This document shows, piece after piece, positions 39,012 to 63,850 of a stretch of DNA of 64,000 nucleotides; positions within the stretch are counted from its first letter, which is position 1, and every line of letters starts with the position of its first letter. Under the pieces are notes generated by a model. That model had not been told where the DNA came from. It saw nothing but the letters and a program-made list of their open reading frames with translations, and did no database searches. Origin of the DNA: a virus; IMG/VR virus record IMGVR_UViG_3300050821_001428, positions 80,268 to 144,267 of that record; one strand, given 5' to 3'. The position numbers were made by a program, and so were the translations under genes.

Positions 39012-40100
39012 TTATAGCTGCCACTGAACAGGAGCACCTGTGGATAGACCACCGATGTCTAGCTTGCTCGGAGCCGCTGTCGAATCACTCTTTAGAACTC
39101 TTGCGATACCACGGGGGTTCAATACAAGCATTCCGATAAGTTCATCGAGTACCCATCCCTTGTAGAACTGCTCTACAAGGTGATTCTCTTCAACGTCTAG
39201 CGAGTACATGACTGGCATAACGCCGACGAACTCTGGCTCTGCGGTTAGGAAGACCTCGCCCTGAGGAACGATGATCGAACGTTGAATCTGGAACTCACCG
39301 AACGATGTGATCTTACCACCTGCAAACACCTCATCCTTGAACTTGAAGCCTGTAACATTCAGATCCCATGTGTAAAGGTCACGAATATCAACCGGGTGTG
39401 CTAGCACGCGGCGAGCCTCAAGCTGGTTGATTTCGATCTGCGATACAGCGGAGTAGAAGTCCGATGGCTCTAGTGGGTTACCTGCGCCTAGAAGAACGGT
39501 ATGCTCATTAGGAGCAACCGATGGACCGGCTGCGATACCAGAAGCAATACCACCCGTAGGTGCTAGACCAACTGTGCTACCCGACTGCAATGTCGAGCCA
39601 AGATTCACAATCGCCTGCTCTAGAAGAAGAATTAGACGAGCGTCCTCCTGCTTCTGAATTGCCTGACGAGTTTCATCCTGAGCATACTCAACCGCATTTA
39701 CACGTAGGAAGTAAAGGTCTTCCTTACGAATACGTGGGAAGGATGCGATACGGAATAGCTGTGGGAAAGCCTGCTTGCCTTCGAATGGAGTGATCTTGAC
39801 TTCAGCGTCAGTGCTGTTAAGCACGTAAGCTTGACCAAGGTCATCCAGAATATCATAAGGCATAAGTGGGCCACGCTCTAGAGTATCTTCCACAAGGACA
39901 TTACGTACAATACCCTCATAACGAAGACGGATCTGGATAGGACCAATCATTCCCTGACCAATTCGACGTAGAGCATTCTGCTTGTCGGCTAGAATAGCTT
40001 CCAAACGTGCTGACTTCTGCGTCTTGGAAAGCTTCGGAGAACCCGATAGCTTCATTTCATAATCTGCGGAACTAACCGCTTGTCTTGTAAATTCTGACAT
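39012..40100 (-). CDS. Major capsid protein
   Basis: The 362-residue protein has the HK97-type outline. The basic helical N-terminus includes NALRRIGQGMIGPIQIRLRY. The P-domain-like part carries LPYDILDD-type and FEGKQAFPQLFRIASFPRIR phrases and a long helix (EYAQDETRQAIQKQEDARLI). The C-terminal beta part includes GEFQIQRSIIVPQGEVFLTA and FVGVMPVMYSLDVEENH. It is the last gene of the capsid operon and is followed by a strong terminator, as for a highly expressed gene. A separate promoter probably lies upstream of the decoration gene. Confidence 0.8.
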   Translation of the reverse strand: MSEFTRQAVSSADYEMKLSGSPKLSKTQKSARLEAILADKQNALRRIGQGMIGPIQIRLRYEGIVRNVLVEDTLERGPLMPYDILDDLGQAYVLNSTDAEVKITPFEGKQAFPQLFRIASFPRIRKEDLYFLRVNAVEYAQDETRQAIQKQEDARLILLLEQAIVNLGSTLQSGSTVGLAPTGGIASGIAAGPSVAPNEHTVLLGAGNPLEPSDFYSAVSQIEINQLEARRVLAHPVDIRDLYTWDLNVTGFKFKDEVFAGGKITSFGEFQIQRSIIVPQGEVFLTAEPEFVGVMPVMYSLDVEENHLVEQFYKGWVLDELIGMLVLNPRGIARVLKSDSTAAPSKLDIGGLSTGAPVQWQL

Positions 40101-46411: not shown

Positions 46412-49400
46412 CTAAAGGCCAAGAACAAGGTGTGAGTCAGGTACGTCCATCCCATTACCCTTGCGACGAGAGATATATTCTTCGTCCACGCGGTAATGAG
46501 TGTTATTCAGATCCAGTTGATCAAAATTACGTGCATGACCATGTTCATCAATCAGTGCCCGCTTCTCAGATTGACTGAAATTCTTACCGGCATTATGTTC
46601 CATCATTCCGCGTATAGATTGATTAGTTTCTAATCTTTCACGAATCTCAGCTAAACGTGGATCACGGGTTGCGATCTCTCTGATATTTCTAGAAGCACCA
46701 GAAGTATCTCGCGCTTCACGATGTGCGGCCATCTCAGCGGCGAAACTATCGTCGTCGCCATTCATTAACCAATCTAATTGTGAATTACCCTGATGTGAAC
46801 CATAGTCATTATCTTTGGTTTCCCATACAGCCGAGCATCGATAACACTCATGCATAGTCGTCGTAGGTGATGACATAAAATCGTTAGTATCATCACTGCC
46901 GCACTTATGACATGAACCATCATTGTTGTGAGCCGACGTTACACTATCATTAGGATACATATTTGTAGCCTCATCGGTGGTCGGTTCTGGGATTACATTG
47001 GCATTATCTAATGAGTGATTACCATGAGGTATCTCGTTATTGAAAGCTGCGCTGTTGGTAGCCGGTTCAAATGAATACTTACCGTTTTGTAGATCGCCTG
47101 GGCTAATTCTGAAATCAGCACTTGTACCGGCTAACTGGAGTTGTAACTCTCCGGGCTTCTTAGCAACTACTGTAACCTCATCTGGGACAGGTACGCCAGC
47201 GGTATATAATGAATACTGATCGCCCTCTTGAATTGGATGACCATTTGTATCTACCCAAGTACGCTGAGGATCTAGTGCCGGATTAGTTAGTGCTACCAAC
47301 CTCATTTGGCTTTGGCGGGCATTCTTTTCATGTAGCGGGAAATCGCGCTGACAACTATGACAATGACCATGCTTATGATCATCCTCGCCATCTCCACCAT
47401 CTAGGATTGAAGTAGTTGCCGAATCACAATAAGGGCAGCGATTAACAAGATTATTAGCATCGCCTGTATTAGCAATAACACCAGTATTAGATGGTAATTG
47501 TTTAATGTAACTCAATGTATATTGTGGGCCATAATGGGTCAACATATCATCAATCTGATGCTGTACCGCCATCGGTAGGTTACGACGTAGGTCAGCAATT
47601 GACCTTAATACACTCATGTCACTGAAAGCCGACATTGGTTGCATTGGCTGTCCGCCACCACCACCGGGTTGTGAGGGGTCTATAACAGGCATCGCACCAG
47701 GAGCCGATGGCATAGCACCAGGCGGCGCAGGTTGGGATTGACCAGGATCAATAAGCGGTGCAGTTGGCTGAGGATTCTGTTGAATTTCATTCATTAACCA
47801 GCCAAAGTTTTCAGGATGTTGATAAAGTTGCTGAATTAGTCCTTGTTGGCCATTTTGAGTTAGATACTGCGAAGCAGCTTCGAACTGCTCGGGGGTCTGT
47901 GGACCTTGATGACTTGCAGTAATCTGCTGTGGCATTGGCATCTGATTAGTAGGGAATCCTGCGCCTGCTGCTGGGAAACCACATTGTGGACATGTACCAT
48001 CGCCGTTAATAGTGCCTCCGCAATTAGGGCATGACTGTGGCTTGGCAAGTGATGGGTGTATATCGGAACCGGGCATAGCGCCTTGGCCTAGATTAGACGC
48101 AGGGGTTGGCACCGGGGCTAGAGGTACAGTCGCTAAACGAGACTGTGTTCGCTGATCTTTTCCCTTACCGTGCTGTTGAATAATAATTTCCATCATCTTT
48201 GGGCCATCCGGGTGTTCATTATTACGGTAGCCAGGATTTTCAGATTCTAATCTTTTATCTAGATCCTGAAGAATTGGATCATCGTCACCCGTAATACCAT
48301 TAGTGATATAATGAAGTAATAATGGCAGTACCCCTTGCATATGTTGAATAGCGGGTGAGTTAGGACCGAATCCATAACCCGGTGTTGCATCTCTTACGCC
48401 ATCCTCACCCGAAGCGCCAGAATCTTCATTATTTGGATTTTCGTGGTTAGATGGCGACTTATCACCATCATTAAATTCTTTCTGATCTTGCTCTTCCGGA
48501 TCATCGTGCTGTTCATCTACCGACTTGACTGAACCCGGGGTTTCTAGATCGGCTGTCTTTGCGGCTAATAATGCTGGAATATCGGCAGAATCAAATGAAC
48601 CAATGAGTTGATTGACAGGAGTCTGAGTTGGGAACATGCCACCGCCGGTTGCTCCACCACCCCCATTACCCCCAAACATGTTTGACGCCGCGTCTTGCGC
48701 TACGCCCTTTGCTGCACCACCGACTGCATGATTCATAAGAGTAGACGCAGCGCCACCAAGTAGAGAACCGTCAACAACACCGGCAGCCGCGTCAGCAGCA
48801 GGATTAAGTCCTAACTCACCAATAGCTAGTCCATTGGTGCCTAGTGCAAGAGCACCTTTGCCAATATCCTGAAGGATTCCTCCTAGACCAGCTACATGTT
48901 CATCGCTCCATAAAAGAGCATAAGGTTCTGTATTCAACGTTTCTCTACTATGAGTAGTGGTGTAATTATTCATATTTGTCGTTATATTAAATGTTTGATA
49001 TAATCCACCTGCATGCATCGGGCCTAAATTATTACGATCAATTTGATGTGTCACATCATCGGGTGAAATATTCTTAATACCCATTACGCCGTCATCACCT
49101 AGATTTGGTGCATATACAACACCCTTACCCCGACATGCTGGGCAACCTTGTCCAAAACACCCCGGACAGGTCATCTCGCCGGACGGACGCTGCCATTTAT
49201 AGTACATATCGGCGGGACCTTCTGGCAAACGCTCTTCGGCCTGTTTAACATGTGAATGTGTATATCCATCATATCCGTGAGTATCCGCATGAGGGCTTGG
49301 TTCACCATCTTGGCCTACAATAGTTCCTTCTGATAATGGGAATCCCGCTTGCCCTCTAGCTAGATCAGGATTATTACCTTGATTTGGAGCCATTGTTCCA

Positions 49401-49759
49401 GGCTCGCGTCTAATAGGAATACCAAATTGATCAATTTCCTGAGTATCCAGACCCGGAGCTTCGATATTACTTGTATATCCCAATCCCATTAGAGCAGCAA
49501 TAATAGAACCCTCACCTAGAGGATTACCACCCGTATCAGGTCCACCACCGGCCGGTGGCATATCCTTCATAATATTATCACCTGATAGATCATCGTGAAC
49601 AGGTGATGGTTGGGTACGGAAGAATCTCTTACCACCGCATTCCGAACAAGCCGATCCTGCGACATCACCAGCAGGGTCTAAGTCAAAATGTGCCGAACAA
49701 TCCCCACAAGTTACACCAATACCCGGGGACTGATTAAAAGCGTCAATACCATCAGGCAT
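46412..49759 (-). CDS. Giant head-region protein with about five zinc ribbons
   Basis: The 1115-residue protein has Cys pairs in order: CGDC/CSEC (near residues 18-41), CPGC/CPAC (DnaJ-like), CPNC/CPQC (near 575-590), CPYC/CHSC (near 775-800) and CHKC/CYRC (near 965-990). Between them are Gly/Pro/Gln/Met-rich disordered stretches and a Gly/Ala-rich middle (GSLLGGAASTLMNHAVGGAA). The C-terminus (about 1030-1115) is basic, polar and helical. It is the largest gene of the capsid operon. I do not recognise the family; a portal role is possible but nothing in the sequence supports it. Confidence 0.72.
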   Translation of the reverse strand: MPDGIDAFNQSPGIGVTCGDCSAHFDLDPAGDVAGSACSECGGKRFFRTQPSPVHDDLSGDNIMKDMPPAGGGPDTGGNPLGEGSIIAALMGLGYTSNIEAPGLDTQEIDQFGIPIRREPGTMAPNQGNNPDLARGQAGFPLSEGTIVGQDGEPSPHADTHGYDGYTHSHVKQAEERLPEGPADMYYKWQRPSGEMTCPGCFGQGCPACRGKGVVYAPNLGDDGVMGIKNISPDDVTHQIDRNNLGPMHAGGLYQTFNITTNMNNYTTTHSRETLNTEPYALLWSDEHVAGLGGILQDIGKGALALGTNGLAIGELGLNPAADAAAGVVDGSLLGGAASTLMNHAVGGAAKGVAQDAASNMFGGNGGGGATGGGMFPTQTPVNQLIGSFDSADIPALLAAKTADLETPGSVKSVDEQHDDPEEQDQKEFNDGDKSPSNHENPNNEDSGASGEDGVRDATPGYGFGPNSPAIQHMQGVLPLLLHYITNGITGDDDPILQDLDKRLESENPGYRNNEHPDGPKMMEIIIQQHGKGKDQRTQSRLATVPLAPVPTPASNLGQGAMPGSDIHPSLAKPQSCPNCGGTINGDGTCPQCGFPAAGAGFPTNQMPMPQQITASHQGPQTPEQFEAASQYLTQNGQQGLIQQLYQHPENFGWLMNEIQQNPQPTAPLIDPGQSQPAPPGAMPSAPGAMPVIDPSQPGGGGGQPMQPMSAFSDMSVLRSIADLRRNLPMAVQHQIDDMLTHYGPQYTLSYIKQLPSNTGVIANTGDANNLVNRCPYCDSATTSILDGGDGEDDHKHGHCHSCQRDFPLHEKNARQSQMRLVALTNPALDPQRTWVDTNGHPIQEGDQYSLYTAGVPVPDEVTVVAKKPGELQLQLAGTSADFRISPGDLQNGKYSFEPATNSAAFNNEIPHGNHSLDNANVIPEPTTDEATNMYPNDSVTSAHNNDGSCHKCGSDDTNDFMSSPTTTMHECYRCSAVWETKDNDYGSHQGNSQLDWLMNGDDDSFAAEMAAHREARDTSGASRNIREIATRDPRLAEIRERLETNQSIRGMMEHNAGKNFSQSEKRALIDEHGHARNFDQLDLNNTHYRVDEEYISRRKGNGMDVPDSHLVLGL

Positions 49760-50437
49760 TTATGCCGCCTGACGACCGTTACCGAATACTCTCATGTGGA
49801 AACGGAATACACCTTGTGTCGTTGATCCATTAGAGTAAAGGAAAGATACATAAGGAGCTATCGTTTCTTGATCAATCCCAGAATTGACTGTGTTAGCGAC
49901 TACTGCGAATGTATTAGCAAGATCCCAGTTCACTCCGTCAAAAGATTGCAAGATAGCTAGAGTACCGGCTTGGTCTGAGAAGATCGATCCTGTTAAGCGA
50001 CTAGCAACTCCTGTACAGATATAGTAATCCTGGGTCGCGCTTGTAACTGCGGCTCCAGTAGCCAACGTACCGGGCTGGCCAGAAACATAAGTAACGCCGG
50101 TAAAGGTTGTACTGGTAATACCTTGATATGCCAGAAGTGCTATGCCGGTAGATGTCGCTACGACCAAAAATCCGTCAGTATTAGCTGGGGTTAAACCTGA
50201 GCCTGAATTTTTTACATATTGCCAGACATTTTGTGTTGACGAGCTTAATAGGTTAATTGCCGATGTACTTGCAACATTCAGAGTTTGTGTGCCGGTGAAT
50301 GTAGTGACATTCACTCCATTAGACGCAGAAGCAACGGTTGTGCTTTGAACACCAGTGAGAAATTCTTGCTGATTCGCTATTAACAGCGGTTGGGCTGTAG
50401 GACTTTGGGCTGAATCATATGCGAAAGTTGTAGACAT
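49760..50437 (-). CDS. Beta-rich capsid-operon protein sharing a module with the gpJ-like wedge
   Basis: The 225-residue protein is Thr/Ser/Val/Gly-rich. Residues about 30-130 (NVTTFTGTQTLNVASTSAIN, then GIALLAYQGITSTTFTG) match, with conserved order, a C-terminal insertion in the baseplate J-like protein (STFTGSGVLNVASTTV, GIAVISYTGTTSTTFTG). The final part (IFSDQAGTLAILQSFDGVNW) resembles beta-sandwich domains of decoration or fibre proteins. It is the first gene of the capsid operon on this strand. A decoration or head-fibre role is inferred. Confidence 0.7.
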   Translation of the reverse strand: MSTTFAYDSAQSPTAQPLLIANQQEFLTGVQSTTVASASNGVNVTTFTGTQTLNVASTSAINLLSSSTQNVWQYVKNSGSGLTPANTDGFLVVATSTGIALLAYQGITSTTFTGVTYVSGQPGTLATGAAVTSATQDYYICTGVASRLTGSIFSDQAGTLAILQSFDGVNWDLANTFAVVANTVNSGIDQETIAPYVSFLYSNGSTTQGVFRFHMRVFGNGRQAA

Positions 50438-50484: not shown

Positions 50485-52614
50485 ATGTCCTTACCTTTAC
50501 CATATCCTAGTAAGCCACCTAGTAGTCAAGTACCACCTACAGCACCAAGCGGTGTGGGTGCTTCATCCGGCACGATTGCCGTAGCGGACGGAAATGGTGG
50601 ATGGAATGTCCGAAATTTGCTACCTGCTGACGTTGGCATTAATTTAACTACTACTATATTACCCGCAGATATTGGTGCTGCCGCTCAAACGGATCTGTTA
50701 ACCCATACTACAAATACTAGTAACCCTCACTCGACGACCGCCGCGCAGGTAGGAATCAACTCATCTATGTTAACTGCACTCACGGCGTTGGCTGCTGGAA
50801 CCTACTCGGGTGGATCTGGTGGTGGTGGCCTGGCGAGTGGCCTGCTTTATGGTGATGGTTCAGATGGTGTTGTTACGTTCGACGGGACCACGACTTTCAG
50901 CTTCGCAACCTTATCGGGATCGACCTATACGTTGACACGCGATATTAACCTGTCAGGCGGCTCTGTAATCAACTCAGGTGTTACGATTGAAGTTGCCTGT
51001 AGTCGAATCTTCTGCATCGGATTACTTACTAATAATGGAACTATCCAGTCCAACGGTATTACAGCAACGGGACAGCCAGCGGTTTCTTATAATCTTGCGG
51101 GCAACCTAACATCCCTCGGGCATCCCGGTAACGGTGGCGCTGGAGGAAACAAGGTAAACGGCTCCGCTGGTGGAGCAGGAGCAGGAGCAGGAGCAGGTGG
51201 TATCGGTGGAGTAACGGGTGCCAACACGCCCGGGGCGTCAGGAGCAAGTGCAGCAATAACTTTGCCTCACACATCTAATGTCGCACTTGGTGCTGTAATG
51301 GCCGTAGGAGTTTGGACACCATTCGGTCGCGGTGGAGGTGGAGGCGGAGGCTGCGGCGATAGCTCTAACACCGGTGGTGCTGGAGGTACCGGTGCGGGCC
51401 TCGTACTAATCACTGCTCAATCATTTATCAATAACGGTGTTATGCAGGCAATCGGAGGTAACGGTGCTCCGGGCACGGCTGGTAACGCATCGGGCGGAGG
51501 CGGAGGCGGAGGCGGTAGCATCGTCGTCGTTTCAGCAGCTTCAATTACAGGTAGTGGTTCAGTTACCTGTGCTGGCGGAACTGGTGGTTTAAAGGCAGCG
51601 GGCGGCACCGGCAACAACGGGGCTGCTGGGGCTGCCGGACCCGGCCTGACGAACATCGTTCTACCGCTTGACACCGTGACTGGTAACCCATACACATGGG
51701 CCTATGGTGACGGTAGCGACGGAGTTGTGACCTTCGACGGTACCACAACGAATGCTTTCTCATCACTCAGCGGTAGTACCTACACGTTGACCCGCGATGT
51801 ATTCCTTGCCAGTGGTTCAATTATCAACTCGGGCGTGACGGTAGTGCAGGGCTCCTATAACAGCACCCTCGCTAACCCGCAAGCATTCCGTATCTTCTGC
51901 AAGGGAACGCTGACCAACAACGGCACGATCAGCAACAACGGTGCTCCCGGATCGGTCACGAACTCCTACCTTGGAAGCGCAGTCAATCAGGGCACTGTCT
52001 CCGGGCCAAGTCGAGGCGGTCCAGGGGCAAGCGGCTCGGGTACCCCCGGGTTCACAGGCTCAGGTTCGTTTGGTGGTGGTGCTGGTGGTGGTGGTGGTAA
52101 GGGTTCAAGTGCCGCATCACAGAGCAACGCAACAGGAGGTAGCGGTGGTGGTTCATTTGGTACCACTGGCAGCATCCCTCGTAGTGCTCTCGCCACCATC
52201 GGCTCTTGCATGGAGGGCGGCAGTTGGCAGATGTTCGGTCAAGGCGGTTCTGGTGGTGGTGGTACCGCTGATGGTACTAATGTTGCAGGATCAGGCGGTC
52301 AAGGCGGCGGTCTGGTACTTATTGCGGCAGTTATCTTTATAAACAACGGCGTTATCCAAGCTCTTGGTGGTAACGGTGGTTCTCCAGTTACAGGAACATG
52401 CGGTGCCGGTGGAGGTGGTGGAGGTGGAATGATCTTAATGATCACAACCGCTGCGGTTACAGGAACCGGCTCAACCAGCACTGCCGGGGGTACCGGGGGT
52501 ATGGGAACGAACACCGCTGCTGGGCACGGTCAGATCACCACGAATGTTGCTTCATCCACGACGGACGGCAATAACGCGGGCACTGGTGCAGTCCTTAATC
52601 TATTGGTGGCATAA
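50485..52614 (+). CDS. Glycine-rich adhesin or tail-fibre tip with tandem duplicated domain
   Basis: The 709-residue protein starts with a Pro/Ser-rich linker. It then has two similar domains of about 285 residues. Each opens YGDGSDGVVTFDGTTT, followed by SGSTYTLTRD and an INSGVT strand, and ends in dense glycine tracts. Runs such as GGNGAPGTAGNASGGGGGGG suggest polyglycine-II sandwiches like those in phage receptor-binding adhesins. It is on the opposite strand from most structural genes. GC rises strongly in the second half (43 of 60 at 51601-51660), pointing to foreign input. A host-recognition role is likely. Confidence 0.75.
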   Translation: MSLPLPYPSKPPSSQVPPTAPSGVGASSGTIAVADGNGGWNVRNLLPADVGINLTTTILPADIGAAAQTDLLTHTTNTSNPHSTTAAQVGINSSMLTALTALAAGTYSGGSGGGGLASGLLYGDGSDGVVTFDGTTTFSFATLSGSTYTLTRDINLSGGSVINSGVTIEVACSRIFCIGLLTNNGTIQSNGITATGQPAVSYNLAGNLTSLGHPGNGGAGGNKVNGSAGGAGAGAGAGGIGGVTGANTPGASGASAAITLPHTSNVALGAVMAVGVWTPFGRGGGGGGGCGDSSNTGGAGGTGAGLVLITAQSFINNGVMQAIGGNGAPGTAGNASGGGGGGGGSIVVVSAASITGSGSVTCAGGTGGLKAAGGTGNNGAAGAAGPGLTNIVLPLDTVTGNPYTWAYGDGSDGVVTFDGTTTNAFSSLSGSTYTLTRDVFLASGSIINSGVTVVQGSYNSTLANPQAFRIFCKGTLTNNGTISNNGAPGSVTNSYLGSAVNQGTVSGPSRGGPGASGSGTPGFTGSGSFGGGAGGGGGKGSSAASQSNATGGSGGGSFGTTGSIPRSALATIGSCMEGGSWQMFGQGGSGGGGTADGTNVAGSGGQGGGLVLIAAVIFINNGVIQALGGNGGSPVTGTCGAGGGGGGGMILMITTAAVTGTGSTSTAGGTGGMGTNTAAGHGQITTNVASSTTDGNNAGTGAVLNLLVA
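50848..52614 (+). repeat. Two-copy tandem domain duplication in adhesin
   Basis: Copy 1 starts at 50848 and copy 2 at 51703, with the same opening phrase YGDGSDGVVTFDGTTT. Third codon positions differ widely while the protein stays alike, so the copies are old or came from different sources. Confidence 0.78.
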
Positions 52615-53690
52615 TGGCGCTCGCATCATTTAGTCCGCGCTCAATCTGGCGCACGGCGTTGGCAGATAACGCTCCTTTGGTTACCGGAGGTTCAAGCCAA
52701 GTACAAGGTCTGATTAATCAAATCCGGTCAAGCAAGACTCCACAATCAAGCCCCATCTGGAGTGCATTCTTCAATCCGCCATTTACTACCGCTTTAAGTC
52801 AGTCGTCTTACGGTATTCCGGTGTGGGTAGTTCCTACGGGACAAGCAACCCAGAAGGTACAACTTATCGTCAATGGTATTCCTCAGACGAATAGTCACCC
52901 TCTACAGGCTGCATGGAATAATGTGCCGCTACCAACTGGTATTTCACAGCTAGAGGCAAATGGTAGCGACGGGTCTTGCGTCGTATGGCGACCGTCCACA
53001 GATGAGCTATGGGAGTTCTGGCACTTCATTGATGACAACACCGGGATTACCCCGAATGGACCCTCGGCAGTATGGGGCGGGTATATCGAGAAGGTATCAG
53101 AGCATCCTGGCTACTATGTCGGTACCCCTGAGACAAACAACCTAAGCTGGGGCGTTCGTGCAGCGGGTTTCTCCGCGCTCGGTGGCCTTATTCGTGTCGA
53201 TGAGGTTAACGCGGGTCTTATTCCACACGCTCTTGTGTGTAGCCTCGGGCTGACACTGAATACGCTCGCTCCTGCACAGCGATCCGACTCATCAATATCA
53301 CCAACTAATTTGGGGTTCTTCGGGCCGTCTACCCTGTCTATTCTTGATGCTAATGCTGTTTCCGAGGGTGCGTTGTTTCGCTTCCCGCCCGGTGCAACGC
53401 CAAGCAATCTCACAACGATTCAGGCAATACTCTACAACGCAATCCGTGACTATGGTATGTATATTGGCGATACCGGCGACTGTATGTCTATCTACGCCGA
53501 AGATACACGCACGTTCGGGACGGGCTACACGGATAGTACGGCGCAGGTTAATGCTACTATGCCTATCTCTGCCGATATATATGCATTACCCTGGGAATCA
53601 ATTGAACAAGTCGCGTGGACGAATTCGGTCCCAACCGGCAAGAAACTCTGCCACTACCAGGGGTCCGTGGCGCTAATCACGGCATACTGA
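52614..53690 (+). CDS. Actinobacterial-type secreted-protein-like domain, possible fibre enzyme
   Basis: The 358-residue protein begins one base after the previous stop (TAATG). Its core (GVRAAGFSALGGLIRVDEVN, then IPHALVCSLGLTLN, then AIRDYGMYIGDTGD) resembles a family of actinobacterial secreted proteins of unclear function, often near carbohydrate-active domains. Aromatic phrases (ELWEFWHFIDD) could bind glycans. It is GC-rich relative to its right-hand neighbours. It is probably part of the adhesin and perhaps acquired from a host. No catalytic residues can be named. Confidence 0.66.
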   Translation: MALASFSPRSIWRTALADNAPLVTGGSSQVQGLINQIRSSKTPQSSPIWSAFFNPPFTTALSQSSYGIPVWVVPTGQATQKVQLIVNGIPQTNSHPLQAAWNNVPLPTGISQLEANGSDGSCVVWRPSTDELWEFWHFIDDNTGITPNGPSAVWGGYIEKVSEHPGYYVGTPETNNLSWGVRAAGFSALGGLIRVDEVNAGLIPHALVCSLGLTLNTLAPAQRSDSSISPTNLGFFGPSTLSILDANAVSEGALFRFPPGATPSNLTTIQAILYNAIRDYGMYIGDTGDCMSIYAEDTRTFGTGYTDSTAQVNATMPISADIYALPWESIEQVAWTNSVPTGKKLCHYQGSVALITAY

Positions 53691-53726: not shown

Positions 53727-54311
53727 ATGAACTATGGAGCCGTGATCTTAGATCCTCAATATGATCTCCTTGATGGAGGTAGTATTAATGCGTTAAATGC
53801 TGGTACGGCATTACAAAATATCGTAAAGTTAACTGCTGATGCTGATCTAGTAGTAGTTACTAGGGATCTACATCCCGATAATCACTTTTCTTTTAAAGAC
53901 GAGCCTTTATTCCAAGACGGATCATGGCCCGTCCATTGTGTAGAAGGCACCAAGGGTGCTAAGGTATTTCCTGCAATTCGTAAGCGGGCCGATTATATTA
54001 TATCCAAAGGTATGAGTCCTGTACCGCCAGATGCTTATTCGGCATTCTCAGCTAAGAAACTACGCCCTTTGGAAGACCTGATTGATATACTACGTAGACA
54101 TCCGGTAGATCGTCTTATAATAGCAGGATTTCTATTAGAGATAGGTGTCAAGTACACGGCTTTTGATGCTAATGCAATCGGTCATTGGACAGAAGTCATA
54201 GTACCGCTAGAAGCATGTGGTACTCTGTTAGATGCAGCCGGGATAGCAGAGGCGATAACACCTATGCGAAAGGCCGGAATCAAAATAGTCGATCATTTTA
54301 TCAACGAATAA
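53727..54311 (+). CDS. Nicotinamidase/isochorismatase-fold protein lacking the catalytic cysteine
   Basis: The 194-residue protein keeps most PncA features. These are LDPQYD with Asp 9, DLHPDNHFSF (Asp 47, His 49, His 53 for metal), WPVHCVEGTKGA, and KGMSPVPPDAYSAF with Lys 94. In the catalytic loop the family has a Cys ('G.atd.CV..Ta.da'), but here it reads IAGFLLEIGVKYTAFDA with Gly at about residue 140. It is therefore probably not a nicotinamidase and may bind NAD-related ligands or act as a decoy. It lies upstream of nucleotide-metabolism genes. The missing Cys is visible; the role is inferred. Confidence 0.82.
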   Translation: MNYGAVILDPQYDLLDGGSINALNAGTALQNIVKLTADADLVVVTRDLHPDNHFSFKDEPLFQDGSWPVHCVEGTKGAKVFPAIRKRADYIISKGMSPVPPDAYSAFSAKKLRPLEDLIDILRRHPVDRLIIAGFLLEIGVKYTAFDANAIGHWTEVIVPLEACGTLLDAAGIAEAITPMRKAGIKIVDHFINE

Positions 54312-54318
54312 CTAAATT

Positions 54319-54645
54319 ATGAATATTTCAATATCGCTAGTAATGAGTTTATCGCCAGATCCACAGTGGCTTATTTATAGGTCGCGTCAAGATACGCAGT
54401 CTGACGACCAACACATCCTTACAGAGACACAAGCCGAGCGCATTGCTACAGCGATCGATTTTACAATGGGAGTAGACCCAACAGATCCTGATGCATTGAT
54501 CCATGTTGTTAACAATGCCAACAGGATGATGTATAATGCACTTGAGCGTCAATTACAGGAGGCTGAGAGGCAAGCTGCTAAAATCAGTAGCCTCAGAGAA
54601 CGCCTCAGTCAACTAACCATAGAAAGCAATGAACAAGAACAGTAG
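54319..54645 (+). CDS. Small protein with C-terminal coiled coil
   Basis: The 108-residue protein starts with a beta-like segment (ISISLVMSLSPDPQWLIYRS), then a helix containing ETQAERIATAIDFTMG. It ends in a coil (YNALERQLQEAERQAAKISS and LRERLSQLTIES). It follows the previous gene by seven bases. No family is recognised. Confidence 0.68.
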   Translation: MNISISLVMSLSPDPQWLIYRSRQDTQSDDQHILTETQAERIATAIDFTMGVDPTDPDALIHVVNNANRMMYNALERQLQEAERQAAKISSLRERLSQLTIESNEQEQ

Positions 54646-55067: not shown

Positions 55068-55379
55068 ATGCAATTTGATACTACTATAACCCCGCTACAA
55101 TTTAATATAGCGGTTTCAGAAGAAGATAATCATCTAGAATTCGTAGTTGTTTCCGGGACGCTATTGAATATGGGAGGCGGACAAGCTCTGCCCGTTCCTA
55201 TCGGTATCTATCGACTGCCTTTCCCAACCAAGGAATCGGCTAAGGAATTCCATACACAACTCGGTAAGGCAATTGAAGCAATGCCTGATGATACGCCCCA
55301 GAGCGATATTATGATCGCAAATAGTATCGGTCAAGTTAATGACTTGGCGAAGCAAATGGACAAAATTATAGTTAAGTAA
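55068..55379 (+). CDS. Unknown small protein upstream of dCTP deaminase
   Basis: The 103-residue protein has a beta start (QFDTTITPLQFNIAVSEEDN, LEFVVVSGTLLNMGGGQALP) and a helical end (SAKEFHTQLGKAIEAMPDDT, QVNDLAKQMDKIIVK). The stop shares one base with the next ATG (TAATG). Its codon use is like its neighbours. No family is recognised. Confidence 0.72.
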   Translation: MQFDTTITPLQFNIAVSEEDNHLEFVVVSGTLLNMGGGQALPVPIGIYRLPFPTKESAKEFHTQLGKAIEAMPDDTPQSDIMIANSIGQVNDLAKQMDKIIVK

Positions 55380-55924
55380 TGTTAAGCGATTTTGATATAT
55401 TTCTACGTGGGGGAGAATTGGTTGAATCGTTTAATCATGAGATGGTTCAACCAGCTTCTATTGATCTACGTTTAGCTGAAAAGATCCTTATACCAACTGC
55501 AACAAATTACGTAAAAGAATGCAGCCCAATTGATCCTTTGCAACTTGACGTAGACTATACCACCGAATATCTCGATAAGCCATGGGCTATTCCACCCGGA
55601 GGGTTTATCCTCGGCTCTACCGTAGAGAAGGTTACAATGCCTCAGGACATCGTAGGTTGCGTCGAGGGTAAATCTTCTTTGGCCCGCCTGGGTCTGTTTA
55701 TCCATATCACTGCGGGCTTCATCGACCCTGGATTTCATGGTAATATCACCTTAGAGATTTATAACGTCAATCCTAGACCGATTATATTACGTAAGGATAT
55801 GAAGATTTGTCAGATTGCTTTTACAGCACTCGATAATCAATGCTTATATCCATACGGCCATGAAAGATTGAATAGTAAATATCAAGGACAAACAGGAGTT
55901 ACCGGGAGTCGTTATGAGTTATAA
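55379..55924 (+). CDS. dcd: dCTP deaminase (possibly bifunctional DCD-DUT)
   Basis: The 181-residue protein has the Dcd signature: MVQPASIDLRL (about 22-32), EGKSSLARLGLFIHITAGFI (96-115), PGFHGNITLEIYN with catalytic Glu 125, and a C-terminal KYQGQTGVTGSR lid. Dcd converts dCTP to dUTP; in mycobacteria and methanogens the homologous enzyme also gives dUMP. With ThyX next door it would feed dTMP synthesis. It overlaps the ThyX start by 11 bases, so expression is coupled. Confidence 0.9.
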   Translation: MLSDFDIFLRGGELVESFNHEMVQPASIDLRLAEKILIPTATNYVKECSPIDPLQLDVDYTTEYLDKPWAIPPGGFILGSTVEKVTMPQDIVGCVEGKSSLARLGLFIHITAGFIDPGFHGNITLEIYNVNPRPIILRKDMKICQIAFTALDNQCLYPYGHERLNSKYQGQTGVTGSRYEL

Positions 55925-57781: not shown

Positions 57782-60700
57782 ATGATAGTAAATCCAAAAT
57801 TTAGCATCAGTTTATCAGAGATACATGATGAAATTTGTCATCGCGGTTGGGAGATCATTAAATGCAAGTATGATAAGAAGACAGATCGTTATACCGCTCA
57901 TGCAAAGAACGAGTTAGATCAAGAGGTTGAAGCTTTTGGCAAGAATCCGAAGCAGGCTCTTGCAAATCTTCTAAATAATGTAGCTTATGAACATGCGAAG
58001 GGGATTCAAAGACTCGCACGTTGGAAGCAAACGTTCGAAGGGCAATTACTACAAATTGCTGAGGCATACTCTAAGGCTCCTGCCTACGAGAAGAAGGCTG
58101 CTGCTGCGTTTCTAGAACTTTCCGCCGAATGCGAATCTCGCGCTAAGGTTATACGTCAGCATATTCAGGTGACTACGGTCAATAATCCCGAACCATATCC
58201 GACTTCCGACAAGATGTATGACGATGTGCGTAAACGTCGCAAACTTGAGGTCAGCGCAGTAGCAGCGGATAATCATCCTATCTGGACAAGAGAACAAGTA
58301 GTTGACTATCGTATTTGCATTGACGTTCTAGGATTCACGGCGGCTAACGCTAATTGGGGTTGGGAAGGTACAAATTATGCGTTTGGTGCTTTTGCCGCAT
58401 TGTTGCCAGAGCTAGCCCAGGAAGCACTCTTTAGCGAGCTTGTAGGACAGACGGCATATGCAACTTATTATCGTGCCTATGGCCCAGCCAAGATTTGCCT
58501 TTTGACTAAGTTTATCGAAAAAGCGATGAGGGAAGAAAATCCTCATCGTGGTTTCCGTGGTATCCATCCCTCCCAGATGTTATTGCCTAGCGAGACTCCA
58601 GAGGCGAAGCAAAAAACTGCTGGTATTGCCAAGAAAACTAAGCCAAACGCCGATGGTTCGATGCCCTTTGACATTAATGATGGCTGGTCATCAACTCTAG
58701 AGAATATTCCAACTGTTCACTATCCGACTGAATTTAGCGACTTCTTTAATCTACGCGGCGCAAGCGATGTTTTAGATGGTCTACATACTGATTGGGCCGA
58801 AACTATTCACGATAATTCTGATAGTGCGCATATACGTCAAGAATGGCGTACATATAAGTTAGATGACCCTGAAGGAGCCTTACGTATTAAGCACGCTGTG
58901 GCGAATGCCATCAAGGGTGCATTATTACTAGAAGATAATACGCTAGGTCATGGGGCCGTTCAATATCAAGCTCTTCTTCACAAGGTGTCTGATGATCCAG
59001 AAGAGCTTATCAAAACGCTTAATGGGGCACGTTCTGAATGGAACGTTGAGCGTTTTGGTGAACATACTTCAGAAGAGCATCGCCCTTGGGCTATTGCTGA
59101 TGCTAAATCTGGCCAAATTCCCATGTTTGCATTAGCAAACTTGATTTATGAAAAGAATCCAGATATGAAGTTGATGGATGCTCATAAAGAAGCACAACGC
59201 ACTATCCATCAGATGTTAAGTCGATTCCATGAACAGGCCAAGGCTGAAGAAAATACAGATAATATACCAAAAGATGAGGCTGGCTGGCAGACCGAATCCA
59301 AGGCTATTGAAAAGCTCATGAAGTGGTTAGATATAACCACCGGTTCGCACGGTAAGTTTGATCATTGGATGGTCCCTGGACAACATGTGTCGGCTATCGA
59401 TCCTATTAAGCCGCATAAATATGACCCTGGCTACGATCAGTACGATAATCATAAAGTATTTAACCTTCAACGCTTCCCGGCGATACATGGCAAGCATATC
59501 CAAACAATTTCTAAGTTAATCAAAAGCCTTGATCAAATCGTAGAAGAGGCGTTAATTGACGTTCATAATCATGACGGCAAGGGGCACCATTTCCGTGCAT
59601 TTATAATGCACTTGGTTGATATTGATCCTAAGACCGTAGGTGTTATGTGGCTATTACTCGCTCCGTATACGTCGCAGCTTTCAATGATTGATGAAGAAAT
59701 GGCTGGTGCCCTTGGTCATCATGCGGAAGGTCGCGCTGCAAGGAATTATTTTCTTCATGAAAGAGAATTAATTGCTCACCGTGACGGTATGGGTCTAGCT
59801 CATATACCTTTGGGGCATTTTAATCTTGCGCTTAAAGGAGGCCACGTCGCAGGTGGGTCTAAGCAATCATCCGAAAACGACAAACACGATCATCAGGACT
59901 TAAGTAGCTTGCGTATTGAGAATCCTACGCCCGCCTGGAAGGTTAAACTAAAATCCCCCGGTGATCTTTTATATAACTTCTCTTTAACTCCCGATGTTGT
60001 CAAGCCTATTCAAGAGCATTGGAATAACACGGTAGCTACACAATTTGCGCCAGATGAGACTCCTACCAAGAGCCATCGTCCTGGCTTTATGATGATCGCT
60101 ACCAATCCTATTGAACGCAAGATGGCATCTAAGATGCAGGAATATCGCAACCTTGGTATGAGTGTGCAGGACGTATGGAATAAGATAGATGAACCAAGTG
60201 ATATAATTGACAAATGGACAAAAAATACAAACGATCTGACACAGAAGAATTTATCAAACAGTTGGAAAACAGCGGCAGAGATTTGGGAATCCTCACCAAT
60301 CACCCCGAATGGCCACACTATCGCTCACATAGAAAATGCTCCATCAATCAATTCGACCCAGGCCCCCTATCTGATGACGAGTGGATCAACGAATTTATCG
60401 AATGGTTACGTGAGCGCAGTGCATCCAACCTGGCTGAATCAATGGATTCAGCATAACGGACCATATTTAACCCATTATACCCCCAACCCTAATACCGTTC
60501 AGGATATATATCGTAATGGACTCATCCCAGCTTCGCAACTAGATCAAGATCAAAAATTTTATAGTGGAAAGTTAACTTCTAGACCTGATCATGTATATCT
60601 TCAGGGATCTATTCCGGCCCCAAACTTTTCAAATAATTATGTTGCTGTGGATTTACGTAAATTAGATCCGTCTAATCTCAATCCAGATGAGGATTCCTTA

Positions 60701-61888
60701 TTACATACCAATCACCCATTTGATGATATACCATATGGTAATGGACGTACCCCTGTAAATTTCCCTTACCAAAGTTATGGTCATTGGGCACATCAATATA
60801 ATCTAGCGCATCCAAAACATACAAGTTGGAGTTTAAATTCAATAGGTACTGTTGCACATCAAGGTATGATTACTCCAGATCAATTAACTCCAATGGCGCA
60901 AGTATATACTGATTTGCAACAAAATTGGCCACATGTATTATCCAATTATGGTCCCACCCATCGAGTACCTTACAATTCACGGTGGGATGATCTTGGCACT
61001 AAAGAATCTGCGCAACCGGGCTGGACAGACTTTTACCACGCTACACCACGCGCTAATAGAGAATCAATTCAAAATCTTGGTTTGATGGGCGAAAATGGCT
61101 CATCGCCATGGGGTGACACGACACGAAGTTGGGGGCAGCCTTATGGTAACTATTTCTTTGATAATCCAAATGATGCTGTGACATATGCAAATTCAGCGTA
61201 TAATCGGTTCAAGCGCGATGGGGCTGATGACTATGAGCGTCAGTATACTCAGGCCGAGCCGCCTCAGGGTTGGGGTAATCTAAATGATGATGAATATGAT
61301 CAATGGCATGAAGATAATCCTCCTACACAGAGAACAGAAGATCCTGAAGGCTGGGATGTTTGGAAGGTAAATACCCGAGGATTGAATATCAATCGTGACC
61401 CCGAAGCAAACCTAGTATCTCCTCGCAGTCCTCAGGATATTCATCCCGATATGAATAATAGCGATGCTCCGTGGGATGAGCAATTGGAAGATGCAATTAA
61501 TATGTATGGCGGTAGTCCTAATCGTTATTATACACAAGATCATATAGAACCGGAACGTGTACAGCTACATCAGCATATTCCAATGTGGCAAAACCATGAC
61601 GATGACGAATACGAATACGAATACGAATATGAGACACATCACCCGATGCATTGGGATGAGGCGCTGCTACATAGGCCAAAGTTCCCTGCACATAGCTCTA
61701 TTAAGACAGCCGATAAACTACACGATTTCTTAATGAATCCAAAGAGTCGTCCTGATACCAATTTAAATCCACATTGGAATCCCGACACACATAAGTACGA
61801 GAATGAGCTATATCAATCATCACCGCAATCGGTACCCCAACAGTTACCACAACCTATACAACCAGTACCGGGAGGGGCTTGGAGCTAA
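57782..61888 (+). CDS. Giant protein with two ADP-ribosyltransferase-like C-terminal domains
   Basis: The 1368-residue protein has an N-terminal dsRBD-like segment (about 5-65) and a long helical middle. It contains conserved-looking phrases GFTAANANWGWEGTNYAFGA and HNHDGKGHHFRAFIMHLVD. Two C-terminal domains look like the ART/Tpt1/DarT fold. At about 895-1035 LTHYTPNPNTVQDIYRNGLI is followed by YVAVDLRKLDPSNLNPDEDS. At about 1084-1270 DFYHATPRANRESIQNLGLM leads to GNYFFDNPNDAVTYAN and DVWKVNTRGLNINRDPE. T4 Alt and ModA are phage precedents for injected ARTs. A short acidic (EY) repeat precedes the C-terminus. Catalytic activity is inferred only. Confidence 0.75.
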   Translation: MIVNPKFSISLSEIHDEICHRGWEIIKCKYDKKTDRYTAHAKNELDQEVEAFGKNPKQALANLLNNVAYEHAKGIQRLARWKQTFEGQLLQIAEAYSKAPAYEKKAAAAFLELSAECESRAKVIRQHIQVTTVNNPEPYPTSDKMYDDVRKRRKLEVSAVAADNHPIWTREQVVDYRICIDVLGFTAANANWGWEGTNYAFGAFAALLPELAQEALFSELVGQTAYATYYRAYGPAKICLLTKFIEKAMREENPHRGFRGIHPSQMLLPSETPEAKQKTAGIAKKTKPNADGSMPFDINDGWSSTLENIPTVHYPTEFSDFFNLRGASDVLDGLHTDWAETIHDNSDSAHIRQEWRTYKLDDPEGALRIKHAVANAIKGALLLEDNTLGHGAVQYQALLHKVSDDPEELIKTLNGARSEWNVERFGEHTSEEHRPWAIADAKSGQIPMFALANLIYEKNPDMKLMDAHKEAQRTIHQMLSRFHEQAKAEENTDNIPKDEAGWQTESKAIEKLMKWLDITTGSHGKFDHWMVPGQHVSAIDPIKPHKYDPGYDQYDNHKVFNLQRFPAIHGKHIQTISKLIKSLDQIVEEALIDVHNHDGKGHHFRAFIMHLVDIDPKTVGVMWLLLAPYTSQLSMIDEEMAGALGHHAEGRAARNYFLHERELIAHRDGMGLAHIPLGHFNLALKGGHVAGGSKQSSENDKHDHQDLSSLRIENPTPAWKVKLKSPGDLLYNFSLTPDVVKPIQEHWNNTVATQFAPDETPTKSHRPGFMMIATNPIERKMASKMQEYRNLGMSVQDVWNKIDEPSDIIDKWTKNTNDLTQKNLSNSWKTAAEIWESSPITPNGHTIAHIENAPSINSTQAPYLMTSGSTNLSNGYVSAVHPTWLNQWIQHNGPYLTHYTPNPNTVQDIYRNGLIPASQLDQDQKFYSGKLTSRPDHVYLQGSIPAPNFSNNYVAVDLRKLDPSNLNPDEDSLLHTNHPFDDIPYGNGRTPVNFPYQSYGHWAHQYNLAHPKHTSWSLNSIGTVAHQGMITPDQLTPMAQVYTDLQQNWPHVLSNYGPTHRVPYNSRWDDLGTKESAQPGWTDFYHATPRANRESIQNLGLMGENGSSPWGDTTRSWGQPYGNYFFDNPNDAVTYANSAYNRFKRDGADDYERQYTQAEPPQGWGNLNDDEYDQWHEDNPPTQRTEDPEGWDVWKVNTRGLNINRDPEANLVSPRSPQDIHPDMNNSDAPWDEQLEDAINMYGGSPNRYYTQDHIEPERVQLHQHIPMWQNHDDDEYEYEYEYETHHPMHWDEALLHRPKFPAHSSIKTADKLHDFLMNPKSRPDTNLNPHWNPDTHKYENELYQSSPQSVPQQLPQPIQPVPGGAWS

Positions 61889-62049
61889 TGCATTATCATT
61901 GGAAGACAGGACAACCTTGTAATTGTGGTTTTCATAAGCCAGTAGCAAACGAAGCACAATGGATTACGCCAGAATATACACCAAGAGGTGATGACAGCCG
62001 TGAAATTGTAGGACAGCGGCGGGATAATACAGATGAATCAGATAACTAG
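61888..62049 (+). CDS. 53-residue Cys/His peptide between effector genes
   Basis: ATG at 61888 shares a base with the previous stop (TAATG). The 53-codon frame begins MHYHWKTGQPCNCGFHKPVA, with CNC and several His that could bind a metal. It ends by overlapping the start of the next gene by 17 bases, as in tight phage operons. It may be real; function is unknown. Confidence 0.58.
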   Translation: MHYHWKTGQPCNCGFHKPVANEAQWITPEYTPRGDDSREIVGQRRDNTDESDN

Positions 62050-63850
62050 TATGTCGGCTGATGAACTGCATGTGTCTCTTAAGGTACCACGTTATGCAGC
62101 TAAGGAGATATTTAGATGGGCCAGAGAACAGCAATGGCCCGAAGGCACCCAGCTTGAAGATTTTAATGAGTATCACTGCACGCTGCTCTACTCGCCAAAT
62201 GGATATCAATATTGGTCAGATGCCTGGTTTATTCCAAAGCTTGAAGTCTTAGAAGCACAGGTAGTAGGATTTGATAACTTTGGTGACGGCGAGGGGGAAC
62301 AGGTAGCTTATGTATTACGTCTACATGGTGAGGATCTTCAAGCCGAGGCGGAGAAGCTTCAATCGGAAGCTAGTCACGTCGGGGTCATCGACAATTTTCT
62401 AGGCGCTTATAAGCCACATATTACCATAGGTTACGGGCCAGTTAAGGTCAATGTTACACCGCCTGATATGTTATTAGATTTAGGTCCGGTAGAAGTCTCG
62501 CCACCGCGTCTAGAACTAACAGATACACCATCATTAGAAGGTATCGCCAAGGATTTACACCAAGAATATCAAGACGGTACATCGCCAACTGAAATTGTCA
62601 TGTATGCAGCAAATCGCCTCAATGTCGCAGGGTTCCCTGACGACGATATCACTATACAGGCAGCCCTAGAGTCTTGGCAGATCCTTTACCCTGAAGATGT
62701 TATTTTACAGCATACGGCGGAATGGGCTTGGAATTCTGGCTTTGAACATTTAATAGATCAATATTCACCTCATGGACTTTCATGTCTTTATGACGAAACC
62801 CCAAATATGATTGATATCTCACATATAGAGGTAGATCCTGCTCGTCGTAATACGGGAATTGGGTCTAAATTCATGGAAGCCGCCCATCAATATGCCCAGA
62901 GTGTTGGTAAGCAACTGAATATCTCAAGGGTGGACAATGCCCCATTCTTTAATAAATTTCCATTTTTACAGCAACAAGACGCTAAGACATTCGTTACCGC
63001 ATCGATATGGGATGAGACTAACAATTGGCGACCAAGCTCTCTTATAGCCGCACAGCATAGTAGTCAAAATATAATGCCTAATGATCATTCGTATTATCAT
63101 GCGGCTTTAAACCAATTTACACCAAATCCGAATAGTGGTGTCCATAAATCATTTATTAATACAGAAACACCTAATCAGCTTTATATCAAGCCAGAACAAC
63201 CAGATGACTATCATCGCGATTCTCCGATTAAAGAGCGTGGAGCATTTATATTAGGTAACGCTATGGGCATGAATGTGCCACAAGCAGTGGTTAGACCTGT
63301 GGTAATACCACAACATCAGTTGTATGCAACAAGTCGTGAGGCATTTCAAAAGAGAAACCCGCGACATCATCCGGATAAACCCATTAGAGCGTATGCGTCG
63401 GTACATCATGGCGTTCCTAATAGCCAGACATTGGAAGATTATCTATATGACCAGGGTATTTATAGTCACGAACTGCAATCACAGTGGATGGCTACGCAAC
63501 CCGAGGAACGTCGTAAGACGTTATTATTTGACCAAGTTATTGGTAATCAAGACAGACATAGTGGTAATCTATTAATAGATAATAATAATCAGTGGCATCA
63601 GATCGATCATGGAGGGGCATTCAGAAATGTGACCGATGATGGAGCAGATCATTTCTTTTTTAATAAAGATTTTTATGATCAACCACTAACGAATGAAGAA
63701 CGTCAGCGAGTACAAGCCGCGCGTCAGGCTATTGACAATCCCAAACATTCTGCTATATTTAGTCATCCCGACCTACATCCAAAGGTCTTAAATCAGCGCA
63801 TTAATACGCTGCTCAATACAGGGAAATTTATCACACCACCCGTATCATAA
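62033..63850 (+). CDS. Three-domain protein: 2H phosphoesterase, GNAT and HipA/PI3K-like kinase
   Basis: The 605-residue protein has three parts. Residues 40-140 carry the two HxT motifs of 2H phosphoesterases: HCTLLY (His 48, Thr 50) and HITIGYG (His 129, Thr 131). Residues about 225-315 look like GNAT, with IEVDPARRNTGIGSKFME. Residues about 380-600 hold kinase-like motifs: YIKPEQ (Lys 386), IGNQDRHSGNLLID (Asp 507, Asn 512) and QIDHGGAF (Asp 525). 2H enzymes of phages such as Acb1 cleave cyclic-nucleotide defence signals; HipA-type kinases modify host targets. The motifs are visible; substrates are unknown. The alternative start at 62051 would drop six residues. Confidence 0.75.
   Translation: MNQITSMSADELHVSLKVPRYAAKEIFRWAREQQWPEGTQLEDFNEYHCTLLYSPNGYQYWSDAWFIPKLEVLEAQVVGFDNFGDGEGEQVAYVLRLHGEDLQAEAEKLQSEASHVGVIDNFLGAYKPHITIGYGPVKVNVTPPDMLLDLGPVEVSPPRLELTDTPSLEGIAKDLHQEYQDGTSPTEIVMYAANRLNVAGFPDDDITIQAALESWQILYPEDVILQHTAEWAWNSGFEHLIDQYSPHGLSCLYDETPNMIDISHIEVDPARRNTGIGSKFMEAAHQYAQSVGKQLNISRVDNAPFFNKFPFLQQQDAKTFVTASIWDETNNWRPSSLIAAQHSSQNIMPNDHSYYHAALNQFTPNPNSGVHKSFINTETPNQLYIKPEQPDDYHRDSPIKERGAFILGNAMGMNVPQAVVRPVVIPQHQLYATSREAFQKRNPRHHPDKPIRAYASVHHGVPNSQTLEDYLYDQGIYSHELQSQWMATQPEERRKTLLFDQVIGNQDRHSGNLLIDNNNQWHQIDHGGAFRNVTDDGADHFFFNKDFYDQPLTNEERQRVQAARQAIDNPKHSAIFSHPDLHPKVLNQRINTLLNTGKFITPPVS

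Follow-up and report, generated by a model that had tools for sequence, protein, structure and literature searches.

Introduction

Nicotinamidase genes have been recorded in phages, as a table of PMC10607447 shows, and among the open-licence PMC papers listed for the subject we found no report of a Cys-less phage nicotinamidase. Rebuilding of nicotinamide adenine dinucleotide (NAD) by phages is also known, as a passage of PMC12774641 on NARP1 describes; NARP2 is mentioned in excerpts of PMC12043709 and PMC12028318, and a section of PMC12363180 proposes that the NAMPT of cluster L mycobacteriophages counters Thoeris. The metal ligands of Mycobacterium tuberculosis PncA are given as Asp49, His51, His57 and His71 in part of PMC3025910, and the isochorismatase PhzD is described in an extract of PMC5353710 as having an Asp-Lys-Gly site with no Cys. 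Here, we analyzed a nicotinamidase-like open reading frame (ORF) in 64,000 nucleotides of viral DNA (positions 80,268 to 144,267 of IMG/VR record IMGVR_UViG_3300050821_001428; this whole stretch is called the window). Its product, the window protein, has Gly at the position of the catalytic Cys, and its orthologues in related phages have further changes in the active site. Tentatively, we favour a nicotinamidase-derived phage protein that would act by binding rather than by hydrolysis.

Predicted fold and active site of the window protein

The ORF and the positions that correspond to the active site of nicotinamidases are the following.

53727 to 54311, + strand: nicotinamidase-like ORF of 194 residues with Cys to Gly at residue 140 (Pfam, curated models, AlphaFold2, Foldseek, VIA-align)
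53751 to 53753, + strand: codon of Asp9, the catalytic Asp position, kept (alignment)
53865 to 53885, + strand: codons of residues 47-53 with the metal ligands Asp47, His49 and His53, kept in the window (alignment)
53934 to 53936, + strand: codon of His70, the metal ligand of WPVHC, kept in the window (alignment)
54006 to 54008, + strand: codon of Lys94, kept (alignment)
54132 to 54134, + strand: codon of Leu136, the oxyanion/cis-peptide position, usually Ala (alignment)
54144 to 54146, + strand: GGT codon of Gly140, at the position expected to hold the catalytic Cys (phmmer alignments and codon)

The ORF starts with ATG and contains no internal stops. Its product matched the isochorismatase domain PF00857 (Pfam, E 7e-15), and the best of the NCBI curated models was the nicotinamidase PRK11609 (E 2e-21), with a score of 76.6 bits, below the cut-off of 174 for that family. 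The best solved relatives in a phmmer search were the nicotinamidases 1ilw, 2wt9 and 3pl1. An AlphaFold2 model built from 14 aligned sequences reached a predicted local distance difference test (pLDDT) value of 83.1 and a predicted template modelling score (pTM) of 0.84; blocks 51-70, 101-120 and 161-170 were weak (averages of 61-69), as were the last residues (39), and the blocks at 131-150, which contain residue 140, averaged 90 and 94. The top Foldseek match of this model was M. tuberculosis PncA (3pl1, E 2.6e-14, template modelling score 0.80), and VIA-align superposed both structures over 180 residues with Z 22.3 and a root-mean-square deviation of 2.7. Among the families listed, PhzD (1nf9) aligned with a Z of 16.8, below that of PncA. 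A profile made from the six orthologous sequences described below found 24 solved sequences at E ≤0.001, with nicotinamidases first and none named PhzD or EntB, an absence that excludes nothing. By sequence and model, the window protein is predicted to have an isochorismatase-like hydrolase fold and to be nearest to the nicotinamidases; membership of the PhzD/EntB type was not adopted, and nicotinamidases score higher in the structure comparison.

An earlier note, made from the letters alone, had claimed that the catalytic Cys is replaced by Gly and had proposed an alignment with PncA as a check. This alignment bore out the claim: in four phmmer alignments, the Gly of LLEIGVKYTAFDA (residue 140, codon GGT) falls on the catalytic Cys of 1ilw, 2wt9, 3pl1 and 3r2j. 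The retention of Asp9, Lys94 and the metal His residues, which the note had also read, was confirmed by alignment, the metal ligands kept being Asp47, His49, His53 and His70. Hence, the window protein has Asp9 and Lys94 of the Asp-Lys-Cys triad with Gly140 in place of the nucleophile, and these three residues correspond to the Asp-Lys-Gly site of the PhzD/EntB type of isochorismatase. Two additional positions depart from the enzymes. Position 136 is Ala in 12/12 outgroup rows and in 74 of 78 viral loci outside the orthologue group (defined below), and in none of the six members of the group. The position was named from PMC3581539, a portion of which gives Cys133 as the natural residue there and reports that C133A is still active, so position 136 tolerates some change. 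The other is Leu14, where Phe is found in all 11 outgroup rows that have a letter. A displaced catalytic Cys was considered and rejected: Cys71 and the Cys of EACGT align at or beside Cys residues shared with homologues that bear Cys140, and by alignment they are thus not displaced nucleophiles.

Orthologues at a fixed position have altered sites

Against 50,697 phage records, the window protein gave only 7 distant matches with less than 33% identity, and the last 24 kb of the window had no DNA similarity to these records. Peptides of the window protein matched 6 stretches in IMG/VR, with no relative among them, in a search that may omit its own record and those very near to it; in relatives reached via dCTP deaminase and ThyX, the gene was found in 0 of 25 records. 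The major head protein (39012-40100, PHROG 2522) led to 78 loci, and in 50 records from these loci the window protein had six matches at E ≤0.01. One of them (G054; 36 residues, E 0.0048, containing a stop) was absent from the profile search and was dropped as a chance match. The remaining five, the capsid-related IMG/VR records G026, G027, G028, G030 and G034, constitute with the window the orthologue group. The six-sequence profile recovered the same six records, that of the window included, among 48 searched, and a collection-wide scan with it found, besides the window, the same five only.

The setting of the gene is alike in the five relatives: it runs rightward, between a leftward gene that matches 46412-49759 and a dCTP deaminase gene. 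In the window, the corresponding neighbours are the following.

46412 to 49759, - strand: leftward ORF on the opposite side of the gene from dCTP deaminase, matched in 5/5 relatives (locus comparison)
54319 to 54645, + strand: small downstream ORF of 108 residues, with similar ORFs in 2/5 relatives (locus comparison)
55379 to 55924, + strand: dCTP deaminase, a neighbour in 5/5 relatives (PHROG 1663, E 2e-50)

Two rightward ORFs (50485-52614 and 52614-53690) separate the leftward ORF from the gene in the window, and 49760-50437 was matched in four of the five relatives by locus comparison. When the dCTP deaminase was compared with 38 capsid-related records, the five strong matches (E ≤6e-40) were exactly the five gene carriers, and four weaker matches (E 1e-11 to 4e-4) fell in records without the nicotinamidase-like gene. 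Protein and profile searches found no such gene in G029, G031, G033 and G057, which group with G030 and G034 in the head-protein tree; judged from the spacing of about 10-14 kb elsewhere, the contigs of these four seem to end before the locus.

The site residues differ among the orthologues. In the order window, G026, G027, G028, G030 and G034, residue 140 is Gly, Val, a gap, Asp, Cys and Cys; residue 94 is Lys, Arg, Val, Arg, Lys and Lys; residue 9 is Asp, Asp, Asn, Asp, Asp and Asp; and residue 47 is Asp, Asp, Asn, Thr, Asn and Asn. His70 is present in the window and G028, replaced by Asn in G030 and G034, and missing or Tyr in G026 and G027, and the stretch carrying the remaining metal ligands is absent from G026. 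The alignment is uncertain in the gapped loops of G026 and G027; residue 140 of G027 is a gap in both alignments made, and its metal-loop letters differ between them. All seven site residues occur together in none of the six members, the full set of metal ligands is kept in the window and in 0/5 relatives, and Ala136 is replaced in every member. Even the Cys bearers G030 and G034 have no full site because their metal ligands are changed (D47N, H70N). As far as the sequences tell, the conclusion that the window protein is not a working nicotinamidase is well supported, since the loss of the nucleophile is real and belongs to changes of the site that run through the whole group.

As a yardstick, viral loci were scanned with an alignment that combined nine sequences of the enzyme type with two from the group, and the best 80 of 81 were kept; two of these are G030 and G034, and the other 78 are referred to as outside loci. 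Nearly all sampled viral loci keep the complete site: residue 140 is Cys in 77 of the 78 outside loci and Ser in one (L199), and Lys94 and His70 are kept in all of them. Because one search pattern includes Cys, the count was repeated on the 63 outside loci that match a Cys-blind pattern, 62 of which have Cys140 and one Ser, compared with two of six in the group (Fisher p 8e-5, with rows that are not independent). Asp47 and His70 are kept in the 26 outside loci matching the Cys-containing pattern. Cys is present in all eight aligned bacterial homologues, fetched with a Cys-free pattern; a ninth, L134, matched only partially and did not enter the alignment.

Three records beyond the group deserve mention on their own account. 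The protein at L199:1501-2019 is a viral nicotinamidase-like protein with the catalytic Cys changed to Ser and the other six site residues kept. The sequence named 'Acinetobacter phage MD-2021a' (L027) looks like host DNA around pncA, with purC, dapA and hpd as neighbours, and 'Salmonella phage S.Kent' (L031), a 1.9-kb contig with an ordinary Cys-bearing PncA, looks like host DNA as well.

Because of the Asp-Lys-Gly precedent, as worded in the extract on PhzD, a repurposed enzyme stays the main competing explanation as far as the window protein itself is concerned; the earlier note had not taken this precedent into account. It would be a hydrolase that does not need Cys, in which Asp9, Lys94 and Gly140 work as in PhzD, maybe with metal-activated water. 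This would fit the retention of Asp9, Lys94 and every metal ligand in the window, and the superposition of PhzD on the window model. However, residue 140 is Asp, Val or a gap in three orthologues and Cys in two, position 94 is Arg or Val in three and position 9 is Asn in one, which means that the orthologues have no Asp-Lys-Gly chemistry in common. The order of the solved matches in the profile search and the higher Z of PncA also speak against it, and we consider this explanation unlikely.

Host and NAD genes of the group

The nearest isolates of the head protein were Myrna-kind mycobacteriophages (54% identity), and 196 of the 214 matching records were Mycobacterium phages; from these relatives, an actinobacterial host is likely. 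Among the phage records that match the nicotinamidase-like protein itself there was no mycobacteriophage, even when a Cys-bearing orthologue was used as the query and matches up to E 1 were admitted (14 records).

NAD+ genes were found in two records of the group, G027 and G028, both of which hold Cys-less orthologues. In G027 (L156:1536-3967, L162), a NAMPT gene (PF18127 and PF04095, above cut-off) adjoins an NMNAT-Nudix-like gene, whose product is Nudix by Pfam and matches NMNAT only through NCBIfam models below their cut-offs; the record also has a NadR-like match with 40% identity. In G028 (L157:236-1886), PnuC (above cut-off) adjoins a NadR-like protein (TIGR01526, E 2e-56, under the cut-off). 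Across the 20 records searched, NAMPT had matches in G027 and in the outer relatives G047 (L159, 55% identity) and G055 (L160, 51%), which have no nicotinamidase-like gene, and NadR had matches in G027, G028 and, weakly, G055 (E 1e-3). No match to NAMPT or NadR was obtained by similarity in the record of the window, G026, G030 or G034. Absence judged by family alone is weak, because the NMNAT-like gene of G027 escaped a search with PF01467. The suggestion of the earlier note, that the protein may bind an NAD breakdown product or inhibit an NAD-based defence, becomes more plausible given the NAD+ genes in two of the six records, although the window's own record yielded no such gene.

A probably kept protein that may act by binding

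The explanation that we tentatively prefer is a phage pseudo-nicotinamidase of PncA descent and modelled PncA-like fold, which would act by binding in the NAD economy. The PncA-derived protein would have lost the cysteine-mechanism hydrolysis of nicotinamide. Through its old pocket or the conserved C-terminal half, it would bind a small molecule derived from nicotinamide or NAD, or else a host protein involved in the NAD economy. As an outcome, the phage could draw on the spared nicotinamide or NAD, or a defence based on NAD would be blunted. The parts of this explanation differ in strength. The homology, the predicted fold, the absence of the Cys, the changes at other site positions across the group and the constant locus come directly from the analysis; judging from the sequences, nicotinamidase activity is very probably absent, and a function at the protein level is probably maintained by selection; the chances for and against binding as the mode of action seem balanced, and a target within NAD metabolism or defence is conceivable but somewhat doubtful.

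Several observations weigh against this explanation. NAMPT, NMNAT-Nudix, NadR and PnuC had no match by similarity in the 144,267-base record of the window, which may be incomplete and in which Adps was not searched. G030 and G034 retain Asp-Lys-Cys and could be metal-free hydrolases. Site cells are kept in 21 of 42 cases and other outgroup-conserved cells in 147 of 270 (p 0.62), which speaks for no special constraint on the site and not for its targeted loss; the site thus appears to be free of special constraint, unlike that of an enzyme, yet not preferentially lost. Five of the six orthologues came together (92/84) in a tree of 18 rows, with the Cys bearers innermost, and G027, on a very long branch, adjoined a bacterial row (77/71); a single clade of six was not rejected (p-AU 0.405, and 0.768 with 94 rows), and in the 94-row tree the constraint that holds the six together scored above the free search. 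Lastly, the GGT codon of Gly140 is one base from TGT (Cys) and was seen in a single contig of one record, so the Gly of the window, taken alone, is weak evidence.

This last point would suit an error of assembly or sequencing in a phage that truly has Cys, or else a mutation private to this record, as would the intact state of the window's other six site residues. Nevertheless, three more records lack the Cys, with GAT or GTC, two bases from a Cys codon, or a gap at this position, and Leu136 and Leu14 of the window are also off the enzyme consensus. We regard this explanation as highly improbable. The head-protein tree, built from the window and 13 records, places G030 and G034 in a supported subgroup to which none of the four Cys-less records belongs. 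Given an ancestor with Cys, the simplest reading is that Cys was lost several times, to different residues; a single loss of Cys with a later regain is a possible alternative history.

The gene could also be a decaying passenger, an acquired nicotinamidase that drifts to loss and has no function in these phages. Consistent with this, the changed site residues differ between members, the site columns are under no special constraint, and divergence is fast: over the same 15 pairs, the nicotinamidase-like protein has a mean identity of 40%, compared with 52% in dCTP deaminase and 87% in the head protein. However, the frames are open in all six orthologues, so that the pattern is one of fast evolution with open frames, and the gene is present in all five relatives in which dCTP deaminase matched strongly. 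In 15/15 orthologue pairs codon position 3 is the most changed and position 2 the least (with one tie with position 1), and 10 columns are invariant across 14 phage and bacterial rows. Even G026, the most reduced member, in which most of the metal loop is gone, yields a confident model (pLDDT 89.6, pTM 0.88) with PncA as the top structural match. The open frames, the fixed position, the set of fully kept C-terminal residues and the codon-position bias argue against simple decay, which we consider rather unlikely; we take the gene to encode a kept protein without the old chemistry.

These C-terminal residues bear on one more alternative, in which the protein has no small-molecule ligand and interferes with the PncA of the host, or with a different host enzyme, by forming mixed subunit assemblies or capturing a partner. 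Eleven of the 45 other outgroup-conserved columns are kept in 6/6 members (Y104, F107, L118, L122, G134, V141, T144, A145, D147, G152 and G184), compared with none of the seven site columns, and G026 and G027, whose pockets are the most altered, also keep these 11 residues. On the other hand, the columns were picked as shared with true enzymes and may represent the core of the fold, and we find this alternative quite improbable.

If the binding pseudo-nicotinamidase is the right explanation, retention of the gene in a lineage that has given up its chemistry would suggest that the fold has another use in infection, against a background of relatives that possess NAD+-making enzymes. More broadly, a new class in the phage NAD economy can be envisaged, though we consider it unlikely: nicotinamidases that have become binders without hydrolysis and are conserved at one locus in an actinobacteriophage-like lineage, with active sites eroding independently. 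Members of such a class would act on a defence signal derived from NAD, as its sponge or antagonist, or would shield nicotinamide for phage NAD+ synthesis. The two Cys-bearing and four Cys-less orthologues form a natural series in which the effects of binding, catalysis and anti-defence could be told apart directly.

Other genes of the window

The giant neighbour protein at 57782-61888 has 1368 residues. By eye, two stretches of it resemble what we take to be KptA/ADP-ribosyltransferase motifs, with no Pfam or PDB support. An ADP-ribosyltransferase would release nicotinamide; this assignment was rejected, as it had by-eye motifs only and no Pfam match. The search for a solved relative of its last 527 residues gave none (best E 0.7). 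At 62033-63850, a 605-residue protein has an N-terminal Acb1-like (anti-CBASS) match above cut-off (E 1e-7), followed by weak GNAT and HipA-like matches; Acb1-like matches occur in four of the six group records, two of them above cut-off. The ORF at 37510-38958 encodes a 482-residue protein in which an HNH/endonuclease VII-like part is joined to a Mom-like DNA modification part. No tRNA was found in the window.

Comparison with known systems

The window protein resembles PncA (EC 3.5.1.19; PF00857; PRK11609) in predicted fold, length, Asp9, Lys94, the metal ligands kept in the window, and the YSAF and TAxDA motifs. It differs in the change of Cys to Gly, in the Leu that replaces Ala in the oxyanion loop and in a score under the curated cut-off, and its orthologues also change Lys, metal ligands or Asp. 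With PhzD it shares Gly in place of Cys, the kept Asp and Lys, and the fold of the superfamily; unlike PhzD, it is nearest to nicotinamidases and keeps the metal ligands, and its Gly is not conserved in the orthologues. To our knowledge, the Tad1, Tad2 and Acb2 families are unrelated to the window protein. The likeness to these phage sponges, as a passage of PMC12043709 presents them, would consist in binding without hydrolysis, which we propose here by analogy only. With NARP1 and NARP2, the common ground is the NAD economy of infection, and the relatives G027 and G028 carry NAMPT, NMNAT-Nudix-like, NadR-like and PnuC genes; the window protein is itself none of these enzymes, and no match to any of them was obtained by similarity in the record of the window.
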